IMG/VR virus record: IMGVR_UViG_3300041409_000170
Location: 1 to 26,139 of that record
DNA: 26,139 nucleotides
From: a virus
Reading direction: 5' to 3' (one strand)
The notes below the pieces were generated by a model. The model had not been told where the DNA came from. It saw nothing but the letters and a program-made list of their open reading frames with translations, and did not search any database. Below are positions 3,160-13,814 of this stretch, in pieces; positions within the stretch are counted from its first letter, which is position 1; each line of letters opens with the position of its first letter. The translations under genes were made by a program, and so were the position numbers.

Positions 3160-5208
3160 ATGGCGACCCTTCCCGACGTTGACGACGTGATGGAGCGCGT
3201 TGCCGAGGAGCTTGAGTTGTCCTCTCGCGACAAGCTGATGCGCCTCGCTGGCAAGACAGGCAACTTCGCCGACGCGATCACGGCCGAGCACCTGGCCAAG
3301 ATCGGGATCGAATGCGTCGAGGATTACGAGGCGGACAAGGCGGCCCGCAAGGACTGGGAAGACACGGTTACCGAGGCGCTTGAGGCAGCTGCGCAGATTA
3401 CGGACGGCGCACCCAAGGACTATCCGTTCAAGGGCGCGTCCAACGTCAAGTACCCGCTGCTGACGACTGCTGCCCTGCAGTTCAACGCCCGCATGTATCC
3501 CGCCGTGGTCAAGGGCGACGAGGCGGTCCTGTGCAAGGTCATCGGGCAGGACAATGGCCGGCCTCAGATGATCCAGGGGCAGGACGGGCAGATGGCGCCG
3601 ATGCCCGAGGCCGAGCCCGGCCCGGGCGGCCAGTTGGTCCCCGTGCTGGACGAGAACGGCGAGATGAAGCCCAAGCTGGTCGGAGCTGGACGGAAGGCGA
3701 AGCGGGCAAGGCGGGTCAGCGAATATCTCAACACGCTGCTGTTCTACCGCATGGAGGACTGGGAGAGCGACACCGACGCGCTGCTGATGCAGCTCCCGAT
3801 CGTCGGCTGCGCGTTCCGCAAGCAGTGGTGGGATGTTGGCAAGCATCTTCCCGCCGCCGCCATGGTCTCGGCGCTCAAGATCGTCGTGCCTCCCGGCGCC
3901 AAGTCCTGCGAGACGACGCCGCGCCTGACCGAGATGATCGAGGACGTGTTCCCGCACGAGATCAGCGAGCACATCCGCTCCGGCCATTATATCGAGGTCG
4001 ATCTGTTCCCGGTGAACGACAAGGGCGAGCGGGCGAAGGACGACGAGGGTCCGCGGCTGTTGCTCGAGCAGCACCGGCTGATGGATCTGGACGAGGACGG
4101 GTTCGAAGAGCCCTACATCGTCACCGTCGATCATATGACCCAGAAGGTGCTGCGGATCGAGGCGAATTTCGGGCCTGAGGACGTGAAGCTCAACGACGCC
4201 GGTGAGGTTGTGTCGATCCAGCGGGGCAAGTTCTACACCAAGTACGGGCTGTTCCCCGATCCCAAGGGCGGCTTCTACGATATCGGGCTGGGTCATCTGC
4301 TGAAGCAGCTCGGCTCGGTGATCAATTCCTCGATCAACCAGCTTCTCGACGCGGGTCATGCACAGACGGCGGGCGGCGGGTTCATCGGGTCGGGGGTGAG
4401 GCTTCAGGCGAGGGGCGGGGGGTCCGTCATCCGGATGCAGCCGGGCGAGTACCGGACGGTGGATGTCCCGGGCGACCAGCTTCGCAACGCGATCGTTGAG
4501 CGGACCTTGCCGAATGTGAGCCCGGTGACGTTCCAGGTGCTGGATCTCATTCTGGGCGCGGCAAGGGACATATCGGGGGCGAAGGACGTGATCACCGGGG
4601 AGGCCAGCAACAACGGCCAGGTGGGCACGACGCTGGCGCTGATCGAGCAGGGGCTTCAGGTCTTCAACGCGACGGCCAAGCGCACCTTCCGGTCCCTGAA
4701 GGACGAATACACGCTGCTGAAGGAGAACGTCCGCAAGTACGGCGGCGAGGTCCTGGCAAAGGACTATCTGGAGGTGTTGGACGATCCCGAGGCGGACTTC
4801 GAGGCGGACTTCAACTCGGCCGATATGGATATTCGCCCGGTGAGCGACCCGTCGAACGTCACGAAAATGCAAAAAATGGCCAGGGGGCAGTTCATCATGG
4901 GCACGGTCCCGCTGCTCGGTTCGGTGGGTGGCGACCCACGCGAGGCGCTGCGCCGGGTCTACGAGGCGGCCGACATCGAGGACATCGACAAGCTTCTCCC
5001 CGCTCCAAAGCCGCAGCCGGTCGATCCCGCCGCGCAGGCTGCGATGCAGGCCGAGATGCACGGCAAGATCGCGAAGGCCGCGAAGGACATGGCTGGAGCG
5101 CAGCAGACCGAGGTCAAGACGGGCGAGACGGTTCTGGATATCGAGCGCAAGAAGTTCGAGCTCGCGCGTGACGCCTTCGTGACCGGCGCGCAGATGGGGG
5201 CGGCCTGA
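3160..5208 (+). CDS. Portal protein (P22 gp1-like)
   Basis: A 682-residue protein forming the dodecameric ring at the DNA-entry vertex, through which the terminase packages DNA and to which the gp4-like adaptor should attach. Length is close to P22 gp1 (725). The N-terminal part contains the portal-like stretch with FKGASNVKYPLLTTAALQF (about residues 87-106). A central wing and stem region includes INSSINQLLDAGHAQTAGGG (about 390-410), a feature of this portal family. The C-terminus (from about 620) is a charged helical or coiled-coil barrel-like extension with QAEMHGKIAKAAKDMAGAQQ. It lies after the terminase genes as expected, and its stop overlaps the next start as TGATG. Confidence 0.9.
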   Translation: MATLPDVDDVMERVAEELELSSRDKLMRLAGKTGNFADAITAEHLAKIGIECVEDYEADKAARKDWEDTVTEALEAAAQITDGAPKDYPFKGASNVKYPLLTTAALQFNARMYPAVVKGDEAVLCKVIGQDNGRPQMIQGQDGQMAPMPEAEPGPGGQLVPVLDENGEMKPKLVGAGRKAKRARRVSEYLNTLLFYRMEDWESDTDALLMQLPIVGCAFRKQWWDVGKHLPAAAMVSALKIVVPPGAKSCETTPRLTEMIEDVFPHEISEHIRSGHYIEVDLFPVNDKGERAKDDEGPRLLLEQHRLMDLDEDGFEEPYIVTVDHMTQKVLRIEANFGPEDVKLNDAGEVVSIQRGKFYTKYGLFPDPKGGFYDIGLGHLLKQLGSVINSSINQLLDAGHAQTAGGGFIGSGVRLQARGGGSVIRMQPGEYRTVDVPGDQLRNAIVERTLPNVSPVTFQVLDLILGAARDISGAKDVITGEASNNGQVGTTLALIEQGLQVFNATAKRTFRSLKDEYTLLKENVRKYGGEVLAKDYLEVLDDPEADFEADFNSADMDIRPVSDPSNVTKMQKMARGQFIMGTVPLLGSVGGDPREALRRVYEAADIEDIDKLLPAPKPQPVDPAAQAAMQAEMHGKIAKAAKDMAGAQQTEVKTGETVLDIERKKFELARDAFVTGAQMGAA

Positions 5209-5459
5209 TGGCTCCCAGCGGCGAGGACTTCGCCCGCTGGCGCGACGATCGCGTCACCCGCTGGGTATTTGCCGCGCTTGAGAACGTCGCGGCCGAGAAC
5301 AAGGCCAATTGGGACCGGGCATCGTGGGAGATGGGGCAGTGCAACCCGCTGCTGCTGGCCGAGCTGCGGACCCGAGCCGATGCGTACAGGGCAATTGCCG
5401 AGGCCTCGTACGAGGGTCTTTGCGAAACGAATGGAGATGAAGGGATTTATGACCGATAA
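5208..5459 (+). CDS. Conserved small phage protein after portal
   Basis: An 83-residue helical protein whose ATG overlaps the portal stop (TGATG). The N-terminus reads GEDFARWRDDRVTRWVFAAL and the rest is amphipathic helix with an ELRTRADAYRAIAEASYEGL segment. I associate small proteins of this pattern with the portal gene in alphaproteobacterial podoviruses, but no function is known to me. It overlaps the GroES-like gene by 11 nt, so portal, this gene and the co-chaperonin look translationally coupled. Confidence 0.7.
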   Translation: MAPSGEDFARWRDDRVTRWVFAALENVAAENKANWDRASWEMGQCNPLLLAELRTRADAYRAIAEASYEGLCETNGDEGIYDR

Positions 5460-5784
5460 GCTCATCCCGCTCGAATATAACGTGTTTGTCGAACTCGATC
5501 CGACCGAGGAGACGACCAAGGGCGGAATCATCATCCCCGGCCAGAAGGTCGAGCGGAACCGGCTGGAAGAGACCGAGGGCACGCTTGTCGCGATGAGCCC
5601 GCTGGCCTTCAGCTACGACGAGTGGCCCGATGGCGCCTATCGCCCCCAGATCGGCAACCGCGTGCTGTTCGCGCGCTATGCCGGAGTTCTGACGGAACGC
5701 GACGGCAAGTGGCTCCGGATCGTGAAGGACAAGGATCTGATCGCGGTCGAGCCGTCGCAAACCAAGCTCGCCGCAGCGGCATAG
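5449..5784 (+). CDS. GroES-like co-chaperonin (Cpn10 family)
   Basis: A 111-residue protein that matches the Cpn10 fold pattern. The beginning LIPLEYNVFVELD corresponds to the GroES N-terminal strand. Then comes a mobile-loop-like segment, EETTKGGIIIPG (about residues 19-30), with the GGIIIP hydrophobic tripeptide that in GroES contacts GroEL. GNRVLFARYAG (about 70-80) and the ending IVKDKDLIAVEP correspond to the C-terminal strands. It would cap the host GroEL heptamer and help fold capsid or tail proteins, as T4 gp31 does for the T4 coat. The start at 5449 is chosen because AAGGGA precedes it and the domain begins there; the frame is open upstream to 5269 without coding sense. Placement inside the head operon supports a capsid-folding role (inferred). 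Confidence 0.85.
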   Translation: MTDKLIPLEYNVFVELDPTEETTKGGIIIPGQKVERNRLEETEGTLVAMSPLAFSYDEWPDGAYRPQIGNRVLFARYAGVLTERDGKWLRIVKDKDLIAVEPSQTKLAAAA

Positions 5785-5793
5785 GAGACGAGC

Positions 5794-6033
5794 ATGTACG
5801 ATACCAGTTCAGCCAGGAACGCGCTCGCGGTAACCACGCACGACACCACCGCGCTGGCCCCGATCGCGCGCGCTCTCTACGTCGGGACGACAGGCAGCGT
5901 CGTGCTACGGGCGGTTGGCAGCAGCGCGGACGTGACGTTCGTCGGCGTGCCTGCGGGCGCGATCATCCCGGTGTATGCCCAGTACGTCCGCGCAACCGGG
6001 ACCACGGCTTCGAATATCGTGGCCCTGTACTGA
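5794..6033 (+). CDS. Spike base protein, RCAP_Rcc01079 family
   Basis: A 79-residue beta-rich protein whose pattern fits the small spike base family named after the Rhodobacter capsulatus GTA protein Rcc01079. It has a DTTALAPIARALYVGTTGSV segment (about 17-36), then a VTFVGVPAGAIIPVYAQYVR segment (about 47-66), ending ATGTTASNIVALY. In the GTA, this protein seats head spikes on the capsid. Here it sits 9 nt after the GroES-like gene, and its stop overlaps the start of a LamG-like protein as TGATG, the same base-then-fibre order as rcc01079-rcc01080. That suggests a capsid-mounted fibre in addition to the tailspike (inferred). Confidence 0.75.
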   Translation: MYDTSSARNALAVTTHDTTALAPIARALYVGTTGSVVLRAVGSSADVTFVGVPAGAIIPVYAQYVRATGTTASNIVALY

Positions 6034-6833
6034 TGTTCATCGGGATCGGCTTGGGCGTGGCGATGCATAGGCCCTCAGCGGCAGCAGCACCCGCGTCCGA
6101 CGCGCTCGCGACGCTGCTCGCCGCGCAGGAGGCGTCTGGCAAGCTGTTCGCGGCCTGGTTCCTGCCCACGGCCGCGCCCGCCCAGCATCTCACCCTCGTG
6201 GGCGCCACCGTCACCGGCTGGGCGGCGGCCTATGGAACAGCCAAGATCGACTTCGCCGAGCTGACCAACCCGCCGGCCTGGGATGCGACCCTGTTCGGCG
6301 GCAAGGGCGGCGTGGTCTTCGACGGCACCAACGATTGCCTGACCGGCACGGTGGCGCCTTCAGCCTGGCCGGATGGCGCCACGGATTGCTGGATGATCGT
6401 CGCGGCGCGCAACGACACGGCGGGCGCGACCGCGGGAACCAAGGCGCTGATCGACTATGGCGACGGCGCCGCCAACCGCGCCCTCCGCCGGACCTCGGTG
6501 ACCAGCACCAACCGGGCGAGCGCGCGGGCGGGTGTCGGCATCCTTCCGGCGAGCACCGGCACGTTCGACGGCGCGCATACCGTCGGCGGGCATTTCGATT
6601 CAGTCGCGCCCAACCTTACCGCCACCGTCTATCTCGACGGCGTTCAGGACGGCACCGCGACTGCGGCGGAGCCCTCCCTGATCATGACCCGCGTCCGGCT
6701 TGGCGCGAGCTCGGCCGCGGCCGCCAGCGTGTTCTTCCAGGGCGCGATCGTCGCCGCCGCCGTGCTCGGCCCGACCGCCGTCCTCCAGGACATGCTCGAC
6801 CTCGAGGCCCTGATGCGGGCGAGGCTGAGCTAG
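6033..6833 (+). CDS. LamG/ConA-like putative head spike fibre
   Basis: A 266-residue protein. The start at 6033 overlaps the spike-base stop (TGATG); the frame is open upstream but non-coding there. After MFIGIGLGVAMHRP it has a helical stretch, then a concanavalin/laminin-G-like jelly roll. Visible signs are GGVVFDGTNDCLTG (about 92-105), a beta strand WMIVAARND (about 120-128), HTVGGHFDS and ATVYLDGVQDG (about 197-207), and VRLGASSAAAASVFFQGAIV near the end, the classic closing strand before a helix (PTAVLQDMLDLEALMRARL). Such domains bind carbohydrate in many phage fibres. Together with the spike base it probably forms capsid fibres that contact the cell surface. A tail or cement location is the alternative. 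Confidence 0.65.
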   Translation: MFIGIGLGVAMHRPSAAAAPASDALATLLAAQEASGKLFAAWFLPTAAPAQHLTLVGATVTGWAAAYGTAKIDFAELTNPPAWDATLFGGKGGVVFDGTNDCLTGTVAPSAWPDGATDCWMIVAARNDTAGATAGTKALIDYGDGAANRALRRTSVTSTNRASARAGVGILPASTGTFDGAHTVGGHFDSVAPNLTATVYLDGVQDGTATAAEPSLIMTRVRLGASSAAAASVFFQGAIVAAAVLGPTAVLQDMLDLEALMRARLS

Positions 6834-6837
6834 GGGG

Positions 6838-7107
6838 TCAATAATCATCGGCCGCGTAGGCTTCGGCCTGCTCTTGCGCGTAGACGATGCAGCCTTCGAT
6901 AAAGCTTTCACTGTTTCCGCCGCAGTCCTCGGGATCATCAATCCCCTGACTCTCTGCCCATTCATATCCAGCCTCATGGCCCGAACAATCATCGACGCAA
7001 TCATAGCCTGCAAAGGTAAGACGAGCATCTGTCCCGTAAGAGTCACCTTCTCCTAGGTCACAGGACCAGAGAAGAAGCGCGCAGAGCATGACGGTGAGTC
7101 GAGCCAT
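6838..7107 (-). CDS. Reverse-strand Cys-rich lipoprotein, moron candidate
   Basis: An 89-residue protein encoded against the surrounding late genes. The N-terminus MARLTVMLCALLLWSC is a short signal peptide with a lipobox-like LWSC, so Cys16 would be lipidated. The mature part has paired cysteines and a distinctive block with YDCVDDCSGHEAGYEWA (about 35-51), then DPEDCGGNSESFIEGC. I regard this as a domain of unknown function found in bacterial secreted proteins. GC is about 54% over 6841-7080, against about 70% in adjacent genes, suggesting separate acquisition. No clear promoter is readable, although an independent one is expected. It probably alters the lysogen surface (inferred). A longer start at 7182 is possible but lacks signal-peptide logic. 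Confidence 0.7.
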   Translation of the reverse strand: MARLTVMLCALLLWSCDLGEGDSYGTDARLTFAGYDCVDDCSGHEAGYEWAESQGIDDPEDCGGNSESFIEGCIVYAQEQAEAYAADDY

Positions 7108-7194
7108 TACGACAGCGTAACGCAGTTCCCCAAATTCCCCAACAGCGGGGATAAAGCCGCCCGGCTCATTCGGGCAATCCACAGGAGGCCTTTA

Positions 7195-8040
7195 GTGGCT
7201 GACGACGTACTCGACGCCCAGCAGGGCGCCGGGGCCGCTGGCGCACCCGTCGATGACGGCGCCCCACTGGACCCGAACCTTCCCGATCCCAATGCTCCGC
7301 CTCCGTCTGACGATGGTGGAGATCCACCGGCACCGGACCCGATCGAGAGCCTAGCGACAGAACTCGGATGGGCGCCCAAGGACCAGTTCCGCGGCAACCC
7401 CGACGACTGGAAGCCCGCCGACGAGTTCATCAAGGCCGGCCGGGACATTCAGCGCAGCGTCTCCCGCGAGCTGAAGGAGATGAAGCAAACGGTCGAAAAT
7501 ATGAGCCGCACATCGGCGACGATCGTCCAGCAGACCATCGAGCGCCAGAAAGCGGAACTCGAAGCCAGATATGCCGAAGCCGTCGAGCTTGGCGATGCCA
7601 ACGCGGCCCGTCAGATCGACCGCCAGATTGCGCAGATCGAGACCGCACGGCCGACCGCTCCGCCCTCATCCGAGGGACAGCGCTTCGCCGAGCGTCACGC
7701 CGCATGGTTCAACAAGGACAAGGAAGCGACGACCTACGCGGTATCGCGCGCCGAGCATTACGCGGGTCAGGGTCTCTCGCCCGCCCGTCAGCTCGCCGCA
7801 GTGGAAAAGGACATGCGGGATATCTTCCCGGACCTGTTCCCAGCGCCGGCAAAGGCCCCACCCAGCGTGGCTCCGCCACCTAGCCGGACCGCTTCGACGA
7901 CCGCACGCAAGAAGAGTTTCCACGACATGCCTGCAGCCGCCCAGGCGGCGGCCAAGGACATGGCCGATCGCGGCGTCATCCCGAACGTGGATGCCTACGT
8001 CACGAACTATTTTGCTGAAGTCGAAAGGAAGGTCGGATGA
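7195..8040 (+). CDS. Scaffolding protein candidate (gp8 slot)
   Basis: A 281-residue acidic, Pro/Asp-rich and helical protein beginning with GTG at 7195 behind a perfect AGGAGG. The N-terminal 55 residues are low-complexity with many Asp, Pro and Ala. An ELGWAPKDQFRGNPDDWKPA motif follows (about 59-78), common in phage head scaffold-type proteins. A long coiled coil spans about 90-150, and a C-terminal helical segment ends in VTNYFAEVERKVG. Position directly before the coat region, plus composition and coiled coil, fit a scaffold that templates prohead assembly and is later expelled. Function is inferred from family pattern and synteny with P22 gene 8. Confidence 0.8.
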   Translation: MADDVLDAQQGAGAAGAPVDDGAPLDPNLPDPNAPPPSDDGGDPPAPDPIESLATELGWAPKDQFRGNPDDWKPADEFIKAGRDIQRSVSRELKEMKQTVENMSRTSATIVQQTIERQKAELEARYAEAVELGDANAARQIDRQIAQIETARPTAPPSSEGQRFAERHAAWFNKDKEATTYAVSRAEHYAGQGLSPARQLAAVEKDMRDIFPDLFPAPAKAPPSVAPPPSRTASTTARKKSFHDMPAAAQAAAKDMADRGVIPNVDAYVTNYFAEVERKVG

Positions 8041-8495
8041 CCGATGTGAGGGGGCGCGAAACGCGCCAGGAGCAAGTGCGCGCAGAGCGCCGCCGTCGCG
8101 ATGACGCGACGATCGACGGGTCACAGGGACGCAAGCTCGCGATCCCGGCCAGCGTCGAGAAGAAATTAGCCGAGGAAGGACGGACGGCCCGCTGGATCAA
8201 CGATGTTGGTTCCCGGGTGCACGACCTCACTGTCCTCGATGACTGGGACAGGGTTGAAGGCGTCGAGCCTCGCGATGTGGTCATCGACCGCAAGCCGGTC
8301 ACCACCGCCAAAGCCTACCTCGTCAGCAAGCGCCAGGACTTCATCGCCGAGGACAGAGCGAAGAAGGAAGGCCTCCGCCGGGAGAAAGAGGCGGCCATGC
8401 TGAAGGGCGAGGTCCCGGGGACCAATTCGCAGCCCGACAATCTCTACGCCGACAAGGCGAACAAGATCGAACGGGGCAACCAAATCATCGAATAA
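8037..8495 (+). CDS. Conserved phage protein between scaffold and coat
   Basis: A 152-residue highly charged protein whose ATG overlaps the scaffold stop (ATGA). Residues 1-40 are rich in Arg and Glu, the middle holds RWINDVGSRVHDLTVLDDWD (about 57-76), and the tail is Lys/Glu-rich helix ending ANKIERGNQIIE. I do not recognise a named domain. Coupling to the scaffold and charge suggest a head-assembly helper or minor head protein (inferred). Confidence 0.65.
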   Translation: MTDVRGRETRQEQVRAERRRRDDATIDGSQGRKLAIPASVEKKLAEEGRTARWINDVGSRVHDLTVLDDWDRVEGVEPRDVVIDRKPVTTAKAYLVSKRQDFIAEDRAKKEGLRREKEAAMLKGEVPGTNSQPDNLYADKANKIERGNQIIE

Positions 8496-8507
8496 CGGAG
8501 GCCTATC

Positions 8508-9080
8508 ATGGCAAATAGCAACACCCCGAGGGGCTTCGTGCCGCTTCGGGACGCGGGCAGTCAGCCGCACAACGGCGGGGTGGAGATGTTCTACGTCCCC
8601 GCCTCGGATGCGTCGGCCCTCTATATCGGCGATCCCGTCATCAAGAACGGTTCCTCGGATGCAGCCGGCGTCGCCGGTGTGATCCTTGCGACCGCAGGCG
8701 GGGCCATCACGGGCGTTGTCCAGGGCTTCATGCCCGACGGCACGACCAACATGGCGGGTTACCGCGCTGCTTCCACGGCGGCCTATGTCCTGGTCAACAC
8801 CGACCCGGATACGCTGTACGAAATCCAGGAAGACGGCGTTGGCGGCCAGCTCGCCGCTGCTGACATCGGCCTCAACGCCGATTTCATCGTCGCTGCCGGA
8901 AACGCTTACACCAAGCGCTCCGGCGTCATGCTCGACACTTCGACCAAGGCAACCACCGCCACGCTCCCGCTGAAGATCGTGGGCCTCAGCCCGCGTCCCG
9001 GCAACGAGTTCGGCGCCTATGCCAAGGCTGCCGTGAAGATCAACAAGTCCACCGAGGCCAACGCCTCGGCCGGCATTTAA
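8508..9080 (+). CDS. Putative capsid decoration or minor head protein
   Basis: A 190-residue beta-rich protein after a good ribosome site (CGGAGGCCTATC). It begins MANSNTPRGFVPLRDAGSQP, continues with YVPASDASALYIGDPVIKNG (about 29-48), and repeats small hydrophobic and Gly strands, a pattern I associate with virion proteins encoded beside the coat gene in podoviruses. It lacks cysteines and has few charged clusters, as expected for a surface-exposed trimer. It lies 16 nt before the coat gene. The precise family is not certain; decoration or cement protein is the best inference. Confidence 0.6.
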   Translation: MANSNTPRGFVPLRDAGSQPHNGGVEMFYVPASDASALYIGDPVIKNGSSDAAGVAGVILATAGGAITGVVQGFMPDGTTNMAGYRAASTAAYVLVNTDPDTLYEIQEDGVGGQLAAADIGLNADFIVAAGNAYTKRSGVMLDTSTKATTATLPLKIVGLSPRPGNEFGAYAKAAVKINKSTEANASAGI

Positions 9081-9096: not shown

Positions 9097-9999
9097 ATGG
9101 CGCTCATCACTCGCGCAACCCACCCCGACCTTCTGTGGCCGGGAATTCAGGCTATCTTCGGCACGACCTACGAGAAGTTGCCGAAGGAATACACGCGGAT
9201 CTTCGACGTTCGGCGTTCCACCAAGGCTTACGAGAAGGTGGCGGAAGCTACCGGCCTCGGCCTCGCCGCGGTGAAGCCCGAAGGCTCGAGCATCGTCTAC
9301 GATGCGCCGGGTCAGGGTCCGACCAACGTGTTCACGCACGTCACCTATGGCCTCGGCTATATCATGACGCGTGAAGCCGAGGAGGACAACCAGTACCAGG
9401 AAGTGGCCGAGGCGAACGCCGCGGCTCTGCCCTGGTCGATGTGGACGACCAAGGAAATCGTCCATGCCAATGTCCTCAACCGGGCTTTCAACAGCTCCTA
9501 TGCGGGCGGCGACGGGCAACCGTTGGCGTCGGCCTCGCACCCCACCGCGAACGGAACGCAGAGCAATCTGCTGACCGCCGCGGACCTGAGCGAGGCTTCG
9601 CTGGAGGATGCCCTGACGATCGTTGCGACGGCAAAGAACAGCGCGGGTCTTCCGATCGCTCTTCGCGCCGTCCGCCTCATCGTCGGGCCCGGTCAGATCT
9701 TCAATGCAACGAGGCTCCTGGAAAGCGACGGCCGCAGCGGCACCGCCAACAACGACCTCAACGCGTTCAAGACGCTCGGCCTCGTGCCGGAGATCGTGGT
9801 CAACCACTACCTGGATGACGCCGACGCGTGGTTCATCCAGACCAACGCTCCGAACGGGCTCATCTCGTTCCAGCGTCGTGCCATTGCCCTCGAAAAGGAC
9901 AATGATTTCGACACTGAGAATCGCAAGCACAAGGCGACTGAGCGCTATTCGGCCGGCTGGGGCGACCCCCGGGCGATCTACGCCAACGCGGGCGTTTAA
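9097..9999 (+). CDS. Major capsid protein (HK97 fold, Mu gpT-like)
   Basis: A 300-residue protein with a strong ribosome site (AAGGAAGGGAG). The N-terminus MALITRATHPDLLWPGIQAI and the segment YEKLPKEYTRIFDVRRSTKAY resemble the Mu gpT-like group of HK97-fold coats. FTHVTYGLGYIMTREAEEDN (about 71-90) would lie on the spine helix or E-loop side. The A-domain region contains LRAVRLIVGPGQIFNATRLL (about 189-208) and VVNHYLDDADAWFIQTNAPN. The C-terminus ends TERYSAGWGDPRAIYANAGV, another gpT-like feature. Order scaffold, decoration, coat matches many podoviruses. Shorter than P22 gp5 (430), so no inserted telokin-like domain is evident. Confidence 0.85.
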   Translation: MALITRATHPDLLWPGIQAIFGTTYEKLPKEYTRIFDVRRSTKAYEKVAEATGLGLAAVKPEGSSIVYDAPGQGPTNVFTHVTYGLGYIMTREAEEDNQYQEVAEANAAALPWSMWTTKEIVHANVLNRAFNSSYAGGDGQPLASASHPTANGTQSNLLTAADLSEASLEDALTIVATAKNSAGLPIALRAVRLIVGPGQIFNATRLLESDGRSGTANNDLNAFKTLGLVPEIVVNHYLDDADAWFIQTNAPNGLISFQRRAIALEKDNDFDTENRKHKATERYSAGWGDPRAIYANAGV

Positions 10000-12842: not shown

Positions 12843-13444
12843 GTCGGCTCGGGCGGCTTTCGGCACAAGTTCCAATTGCGGACAAAAACGGGCTCCCGAC
12901 CCAGAAATTCCAGTGGGATTTGCAGCAGGCTTTCGAGCAGCTCGAGGGACAAGTTACGGCCCTCGCTTCGGCGGTCGCGGCGATCACGGCGGCGCAGGCC
13001 GCAGCTGACGCGGCGAATACGGCGGCGACTGCAGCTAACGCCGCGGCGACGACGGCGAACACGGCGGCCGTCGCGATCACGTCCGCCTCGGCCCTCGCCA
13101 ACAGCTTCGTCGCCAATTTCACGCCGCCGATGATCAGCGCGGCATCAACCGGCGTCGTGACCATCGCGGCCCACAACCGCACTTACGGGAATGGAACAAC
13201 GGTAGCGGTGAGCGGGGGGAGCGTGGCGACGGGGCAGGTGAACCCGACCGTCGTCTACATCTTCTACGACCAGGCTTCTCGCGCGGGTGGGGCGGTGACC
13301 TATCAATATTCGACGGACGAAGCCGATGTTGCGCAGATCGGCAACCGTCATTCGGTCGGCGCAGTGACCATTCCGGCGGCCGGGAGCGCCAGCGGCGGAT
13401 ATGCCAGGCCACCCGGCTACGGCGGGATCGAGCCGACTTACTGA
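12839..13444 (+). CDS. Coiled-coil virion protein in the tail-needle slot
   Basis: A 201-residue protein starting with GTG at 12839, overlapping the gp10-like stop (GTGA). Residues about 24-92 form a long Ala/Thr-rich heptad region (FQWDLQQAFEQLEGQVTALA, then ITAAQAAADAANTAATAANA and similar), predicting a trimeric rod. The C-terminal 100 residues look beta-rich (STGVVTIAAHNRTYGNGTTV, NPTVVYIFYDQASRAGGAVT) like a knob or fibre tip. It holds the position of P22 gp26, the needle that plugs the tail and penetrates the outer membrane. No clear sequence match to gp26 is visible, so a short fibre is the alternative. Confidence 0.55.
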   Translation: MSRLGRLSAQVPIADKNGLPTQKFQWDLQQAFEQLEGQVTALASAVAAITAAQAAADAANTAATAANAAATTANTAAVAITSASALANSFVANFTPPMISAASTGVVTIAAHNRTYGNGTTVAVSGGSVATGQVNPTVVYIFYDQASRAGGAVTYQYSTDEADVAQIGNRHSVGAVTIPAAGSASGGYARPPGYGGIEPTY

Positions 13445-13445
13445 T

Positions 13446-13814
13446 ATGGCTTCCGTGAGGAGAACGGTGGACGCCGCGTGGATCCGCGAAATGGCGGGCG
13501 GCGATCTTTCGGAAGCCATCGCCAACCCGCTCAACGTGTTTCTGACCGATGGGGCCAACCTCGCAATCTTCCCGTGGCGGGGGCCGCGAACCTACGAGAT
13601 CCATTTGGCTTTCGCGGCGCGCGGCAAGGAAGCGAAGGCGGTCTTTCGCCGGATGCTGGGCACGATGCGCTCGGAATACGGGGCGCGCTCATTCTGGGCG
13701 CTGATTCCAGTCGAAAGCCGTCACGTCCGCATGTTCGCCCGCCTCGTAGGCTTCAGGAGCGCGGGCATGCTCACCACCCAGCACGGCCCCAACGAGCTTT
13801 TTGTCGGAGACTAG
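13446..13814 (+). CDS. GNAT-like protein in the P22 gene 14 slot
   Basis: A 122-residue protein. The start at 13446 lies one base after the previous stop. The later part reads like an acetyltransferase-fold helix-strand pair: FAARGKEAKAVFRRMLGTMR (about 56-75), then FWALIPVESRHVRMFARLVG (about 83-102) with the GF.S closing strand. P22 gp14 and relatives (DUF2824-type) lie at the same place between needle and ejection genes and assist virion assembly. Catalytic acetyltransferase activity cannot be claimed: the usual acetyl-CoA loop Q/RxxGxG/A is only approximated by AARGKEA. Confidence 0.6.
   Translation: MASVRRTVDAAWIREMAGGDLSEAIANPLNVFLTDGANLAIFPWRGPRTYEIHLAFAARGKEAKAVFRRMLGTMRSEYGARSFWALIPVESRHVRMFARLVGFRSAGMLTTQHGPNELFVGD

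Follow-up and report, generated by a model that had tools for sequence, protein, structure and literature searches.

The window analyzed here, a 26,139-nucleotide stretch of viral DNA, carries at 5449–5784 on the plus strand a GroES/Cpn10 co-chaperonin gene whose product (111 aa, 12.4 kDa) is a true member of the Cpn10/GroES family according to Pfam, PHROG and its predicted fold. By analogy with characterized co-chaperonins, the phage probably supplies this protein as a lid for the host GroEL in the service of its head proteins, most probably the coat. The basis of this reading is the protein family, the predicted fold, the loop motif, the conserved place of the gene, its co-inheritance with the coat gene and the lack of a GroEL gene in whole relatives.

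The ORF starts with ATG, directly preceded by a Shine–Dalgarno-like GAAGGG, and ends with TAG. Its product matched Pfam PF00166 (Cpn10) over profile positions 1–92 of 93 with an E-value of 3.5e-11 and a score of 43.4 bits, exceeding the curated cut-off of 21.1 bits, and it was also matched by PHROG 3188 (“co-chaperonin GroES”, E-value 6.2e-13) and, at the sequence level, by solved Cpn10 chains. The AlphaFold2 model, built on 33 aligned sequences, had a mean pLDDT of 85 and a pTM of 0.77. Its best PDB matches were the M. tuberculosis, human mitochondrial, Thermus and E. coli Cpn10/GroES (probability 1.00), with T4 gp31 further down the list, and the TM scores of 0.5–0.7 against solved Cpn10/GroES indicated that the core agrees while the loops deviate. 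In addition, nearly all named matches in a viral model library were viral GroES. These results confirmed the proposal of an earlier note on this DNA that the 111-aa product is GroES-like, and the structure prediction for which that note had asked returned the Cpn10 fold.

Alignments and column counts placed the mobile-loop segment at 5515–5550 (plus strand), corresponding to residues 23–34 (T-K-G-G-I-I-I-P-G-Q-K-V). The sequence TTKGGIIIP (residues 22–30) contains the Gly-Gly-hydrophobic motif of the GroEL-binding mobile loop and is very close to the alphaproteobacterial TAGGIIIP/TKGGIIIP; its GGIIIP segment, described earlier as mobile-loop-like, falls on the mobile loop in the alignment to bacterial GroES. 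The loop motif [GS]G[IVL] was kept in 44 of the 52 relatives aligned and altered in 8, which still keep the gene. The loop variants include L097, L098, L020, L023, L013 and L043, and a recognizable mobile-loop motif was not found in L010 and L021 among these 52 relatives. The GroES genes of the latter two (L010:3531–3872 and L021:7731–8075) lie at the conserved place, lack the GGI motif and still score as Cpn10.

The roof region and the following strand were assigned by alignment to 5596–5688 (plus strand), residues 50–80 (SPLAFSYDEWPDGAYRPQIGNRVLFARYAGV), with the roof region itself between residues 50 and 70. A second alignment was used for the roof comparison because MAFFT put the roof of bacterial GroES in the wrong place. 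The phage group typically shows the roof pattern [GS]PLA[YF]..[DY]...[FW]P.G.W(C)K.GD.V.F.[RK]YAG. Tyr77 of the window protein occupies the alignment column of the bacterial GroES Tyr/Trp, and the Tyr following the roof strand is kept in 47/52 relatives. Moreover, relative to bacterial GroES, the phage proteins are longer by about four residues just behind the loop, where a helix is predicted (residues 31–40).

The gene lies in the head module, between the portal gene and the scaffold-like ORF, as had been noted earlier, and 5′ of the coat gene. On the plus strand, the large terminase subunit gene (TerL; 1149–2687; phrog_38, 3.4e-59) is followed by the portal gene (3160–5208; 682 aa, 74.4 kDa; phrog_1216), an 83-aa ORF (5208–5459) with similar ORFs in the relatives L001 and L003, GroES, an insertion (5794–7194), a scaffold-like ORF of 281 aa with a GTG start (7195–8040), a 152-aa ORF, a 190-aa ORF (8508–9080) and the gene for the major coat protein (9097–9999; 300 aa, 32.4 kDa), which profile matches assign to the Phage_capsid_4/Mu gpT-like type. 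The scaffold-like ORF was recognized by its position and by a low-identity alignment to the gene that follows GroES in relatives, and the 190-aa head ORF is a candidate cement/decoration gene by its match to phrog_37556 and its position just 5′ of the coat gene. A sigma-70 promoter scan of 5000–8600 found none. Outside the module, a 137-aa ORF at 13401–13814, between the neck and DNA-ejection-like genes, had no Pfam or PHROGs family match.

It had also been claimed that GroES is coupled by overlaps to both portal and scaffold. This holds on the portal side, where the 83-aa ORF shares 1 nt with the end of the portal gene and 11 nt with GroES, but not on the scaffold side, where a 9-nt gap separates the GroES stop from the next ORF and a 1.4-kb insertion precedes the scaffold-like ORF; tight co-translation with the scaffold is thus not needed. 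The insertion contains three ORFs: a fibre-like 79-aa ORF (5794–6033, plus strand; phrog_12296), a 266-aa ORF (6033–6833, plus strand) with a weak Laminin_G_3/lectin-like hint, and a small ORF on the opposite strand (6838–7107) with a signal-peptide/lipobox-like start. The GroES-to-coat distance is 3.3 kb in the window, compared with 1.9–2.4 kb in the surveyed relatives. Since this site is occupied by different small genes in the closest relatives, L001 and L002, the stretch 5794–7194 looks like a variable cassette within the head module.

The distribution of the gene was surveyed with the coat alignment rather than GroES as bait against viral contigs, which avoids a bias towards GroES carriers, and bacterial genomes were scanned as well. 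A locus was counted whenever at least 4 kb of sequence lay 5′ of the coat gene (37 viral contigs and two genome contigs). A same-strand GroES was found 1.9–2.4 kb 5′ of the coat gene at all 39 of these loci among the best 80 coat matches listed, a sample in which nearer relatives are over-represented because the best 80 matches were taken. Furthermore, Cpn10 was present in 15 of 15 whole relatives’ records searched for it, and Cpn60 (GroEL) in none of the 14 searched. GroES was also present in every annotated phage examined that has a related portal or coat gene, the carriers being HTVC023P, HTVC027P, CRP-901, CRP-902, DSL-LC04, 023Pt_psg01, QDWS535, Pag-Yong1, RW and several Manatee Spring genomes. 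Of these, RW is a Caulobacter phage, and the Alcaligenes phage QDWS535 has a GroES with no loop motif. MW202675 was considered as a portal relative without GroES and rejected, as it does carry the gene, next to the scaffold-position gene and some 9 kb away.

One related prophage, L097, resides in a contig of Sphingomonas sp. MA1305, and there GroES (7666–8004) overlaps the scaffold start at 8001. The genome hosting it has its own GroES adjoining GroEL. The loop reads HGSVFIP in the prophage GroES and AGGIIIP in that of the host.

Pairwise GroES and coat distances were correlated with r = 0.89, a value inflated by kinship among the 52 loci, and the best of 2000 permutations reached 0.34; judged from these sequence distances, the correlation is what common inheritance predicts. 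A tree was then built from the 52 phage GroES and 28 bacterial GroES, T4 gp31 being too divergent to place. The bacterial proteins formed one group (support 99/99), and 49 of the 52 phage proteins formed another (support 97/94), apart from bacterial GroES. The loop-altered L010, L021 and L023, which have long branches, were put outside this phage group of 49 with weak support, and their placement is unreliable. Comparison of the window gene with that of L001 gave a pN of 0.21 and a pS of 0.68, with synonymous sites near saturation, a pattern of purifying selection.

The head module of the window corresponds to that of HTVC023P, CRP-901, Pag-Yong1 and RW, with a Phage_capsid_4/gpT-like coat and a same-strand GroES 5′ of the scaffold. 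The pelagiphages HTVC023P and HTVC027P and the roseophages CRP-901 and CRP-902 likewise encode Cpn10 and a coat of the same family and have no GroEL gene. In contrast to the window, their GroES lies immediately 5′ of the scaffold-position gene with no insertion between the two, carries a longer N-terminal extension and is farther from the portal gene. The closest annotated relative is the Manatee Spring podovirus MW202785 (GroES about 47% and coat 53% identical), which has the same local order, although its GroES overlaps the scaffold gene directly. Bacterial GroES, such as those of E. coli and Sphingomonas, share the Cpn10 fold, the mobile-loop motif and the Tyr/Trp after the roof strand with the window protein, whereas the latter has no LHDR motif at its start, a different roof sequence and a place in a separate tree group.

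The earlier comparison with P22 stands for the gene order (TerL–portal–scaffold–coat) and the neck proteins only, which resemble the P22 gp4/gp10 type (phage stabilisation PF11134, head closure Hc3 and DNA ejection). The coat is Phage_capsid_4/Mu gpT-like rather than of the P22 family, and Cpn10, looked for in P22 and Mu, was found in neither, which places the window outside the P22 group (Lederbergvirus). Nor can a GroES be called less usual in such a phage, as the earlier note had it: it was present in all coat-gene relatives examined and belongs to the 13-gene core of HTVC023P-type phages (PMC9599517). T4 gp31 is also a phage-encoded Cpn10 and is known as the GroEL partner for coat folding (PMC6318259). 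However, it shares only 13% identity with the window protein in the structure match, its gene lies outside the head operon and it serves a larger coat, gp23, of about 56 kDa (PMC6318259). Moreover, gp31 is without roof loops (PMC6318259), whereas the window protein has a roof region.

We propose that the phage GroES would form a heptameric ring, which would cap the host GroEL through the mobile loop, and that the phage-type roof would close the folding chamber. The location of the gene in the head module and its shared inheritance with the coat gene point to head proteins of the phage as the likely clients, the abundant coat (32 kDa) being the most probable one; if the genes are co-expressed, the phage may in this way provide a lid while the coat is being made. 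Analogy with GroES and T4 gp31 makes the heptamer, the docking on GroEL and the proposed client plausible. A 32-kDa coat should fit the ordinary GroEL–GroES cage without a bigger one, and the argument from the oversized gp23 of T4 is therefore not transferable. Accordingly, a phage GroES would more likely be explained by supply, timing or roof surface chemistry than by cage size. Besides the small coat, the insertion between GroES and the scaffold-like ORF counts against the lid reading, as do the altered loops in 8 of 52 relatives, two of which (L010 and L021) are without the motif.

The close resemblance of the window loop to that of host GroES would also suit a general takeover, in which the phage protein competes with host GroES for GroEL, favouring phage proteins overall or freeing folding capacity. 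There would then be no dedicated coat client, and the place in the head module would reflect late timing only. Any phage protein could be a client, and the portal, at 74 kDa, exceeds the coat in size. However, the gene keeps a fixed place by the scaffold and is closely co-inherited with the coat; both observations point towards a connection with the head and away from a mobile gene for host takeover, and we regard this explanation as possible but rather unlikely. The same loop resemblance might suggest a passenger, a GroES gene lately acquired from a host and lacking any specific role, which we consider extremely improbable, because the window protein groups with phage rather than bacterial GroES, and the gene is found in all relatives surveyed, co-inherited with the coat and under purifying selection. 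Recent capture from a host was thus rejected by the tree.

That GroES adjoins the scaffold in nearly all relatives, and that L010 and L021 retain a Cpn10-scoring gene with no recognizable loop motif, would fit a Cpn10 fold co-opted as a head-assembly factor, for instance a partner of scaffold or portal, and now independent of GroEL in some or all members of the lineage. This is improbable, since the GGI-type loop is kept in the window and in 44/52 relatives, and its persistence would be hard to explain if it did not bind GroEL. A bolder reading, to which we give little credence, is that GroES has become indispensable to the whole head module and co-evolves with it, its roof and loop tuned to one coat family, and would act as a GroEL-independent head-assembly factor in those members without a GroEL-binding motif.

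GroES appears from the survey to be a constant feature of a widespread head module and of an abundant coat lineage infecting several bacterial groups, including HTVC023P-type pelagiphages, CRP-901-type roseophages and phages of Planktothrix, Caulobacter and Alcaligenes. Virioplankton chaperonins have reportedly been treated by Marine et al. in 2017. The window gene is of an already catalogued kind, since GroES in this head module has been annotated and reported as core in HTVC023P-type phages (PMC9599517) and appears on the genome maps of CRP-901-type phages (PMC10149686). New here are the coat-baited conservation count, the measure of GroES/coat co-inheritance and the list of loop-altered members. 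They raise the question of why a 32-kDa coat that fits an ordinary cage always travels with its own lid, and the natural loop variants offer material for separating GroEL binding from other roles.

A positional exception was seen in vir526 (L133, BK063670), in which GroES precedes TerL and the coat is distant (27%). Its GroES (L133:1027–1383) resembles bacterial GroES more than the phage group of the window, and the record is assigned to Methanomicrobiales. If this archaeal host assignment is right, the gene is possibly an independent gain.
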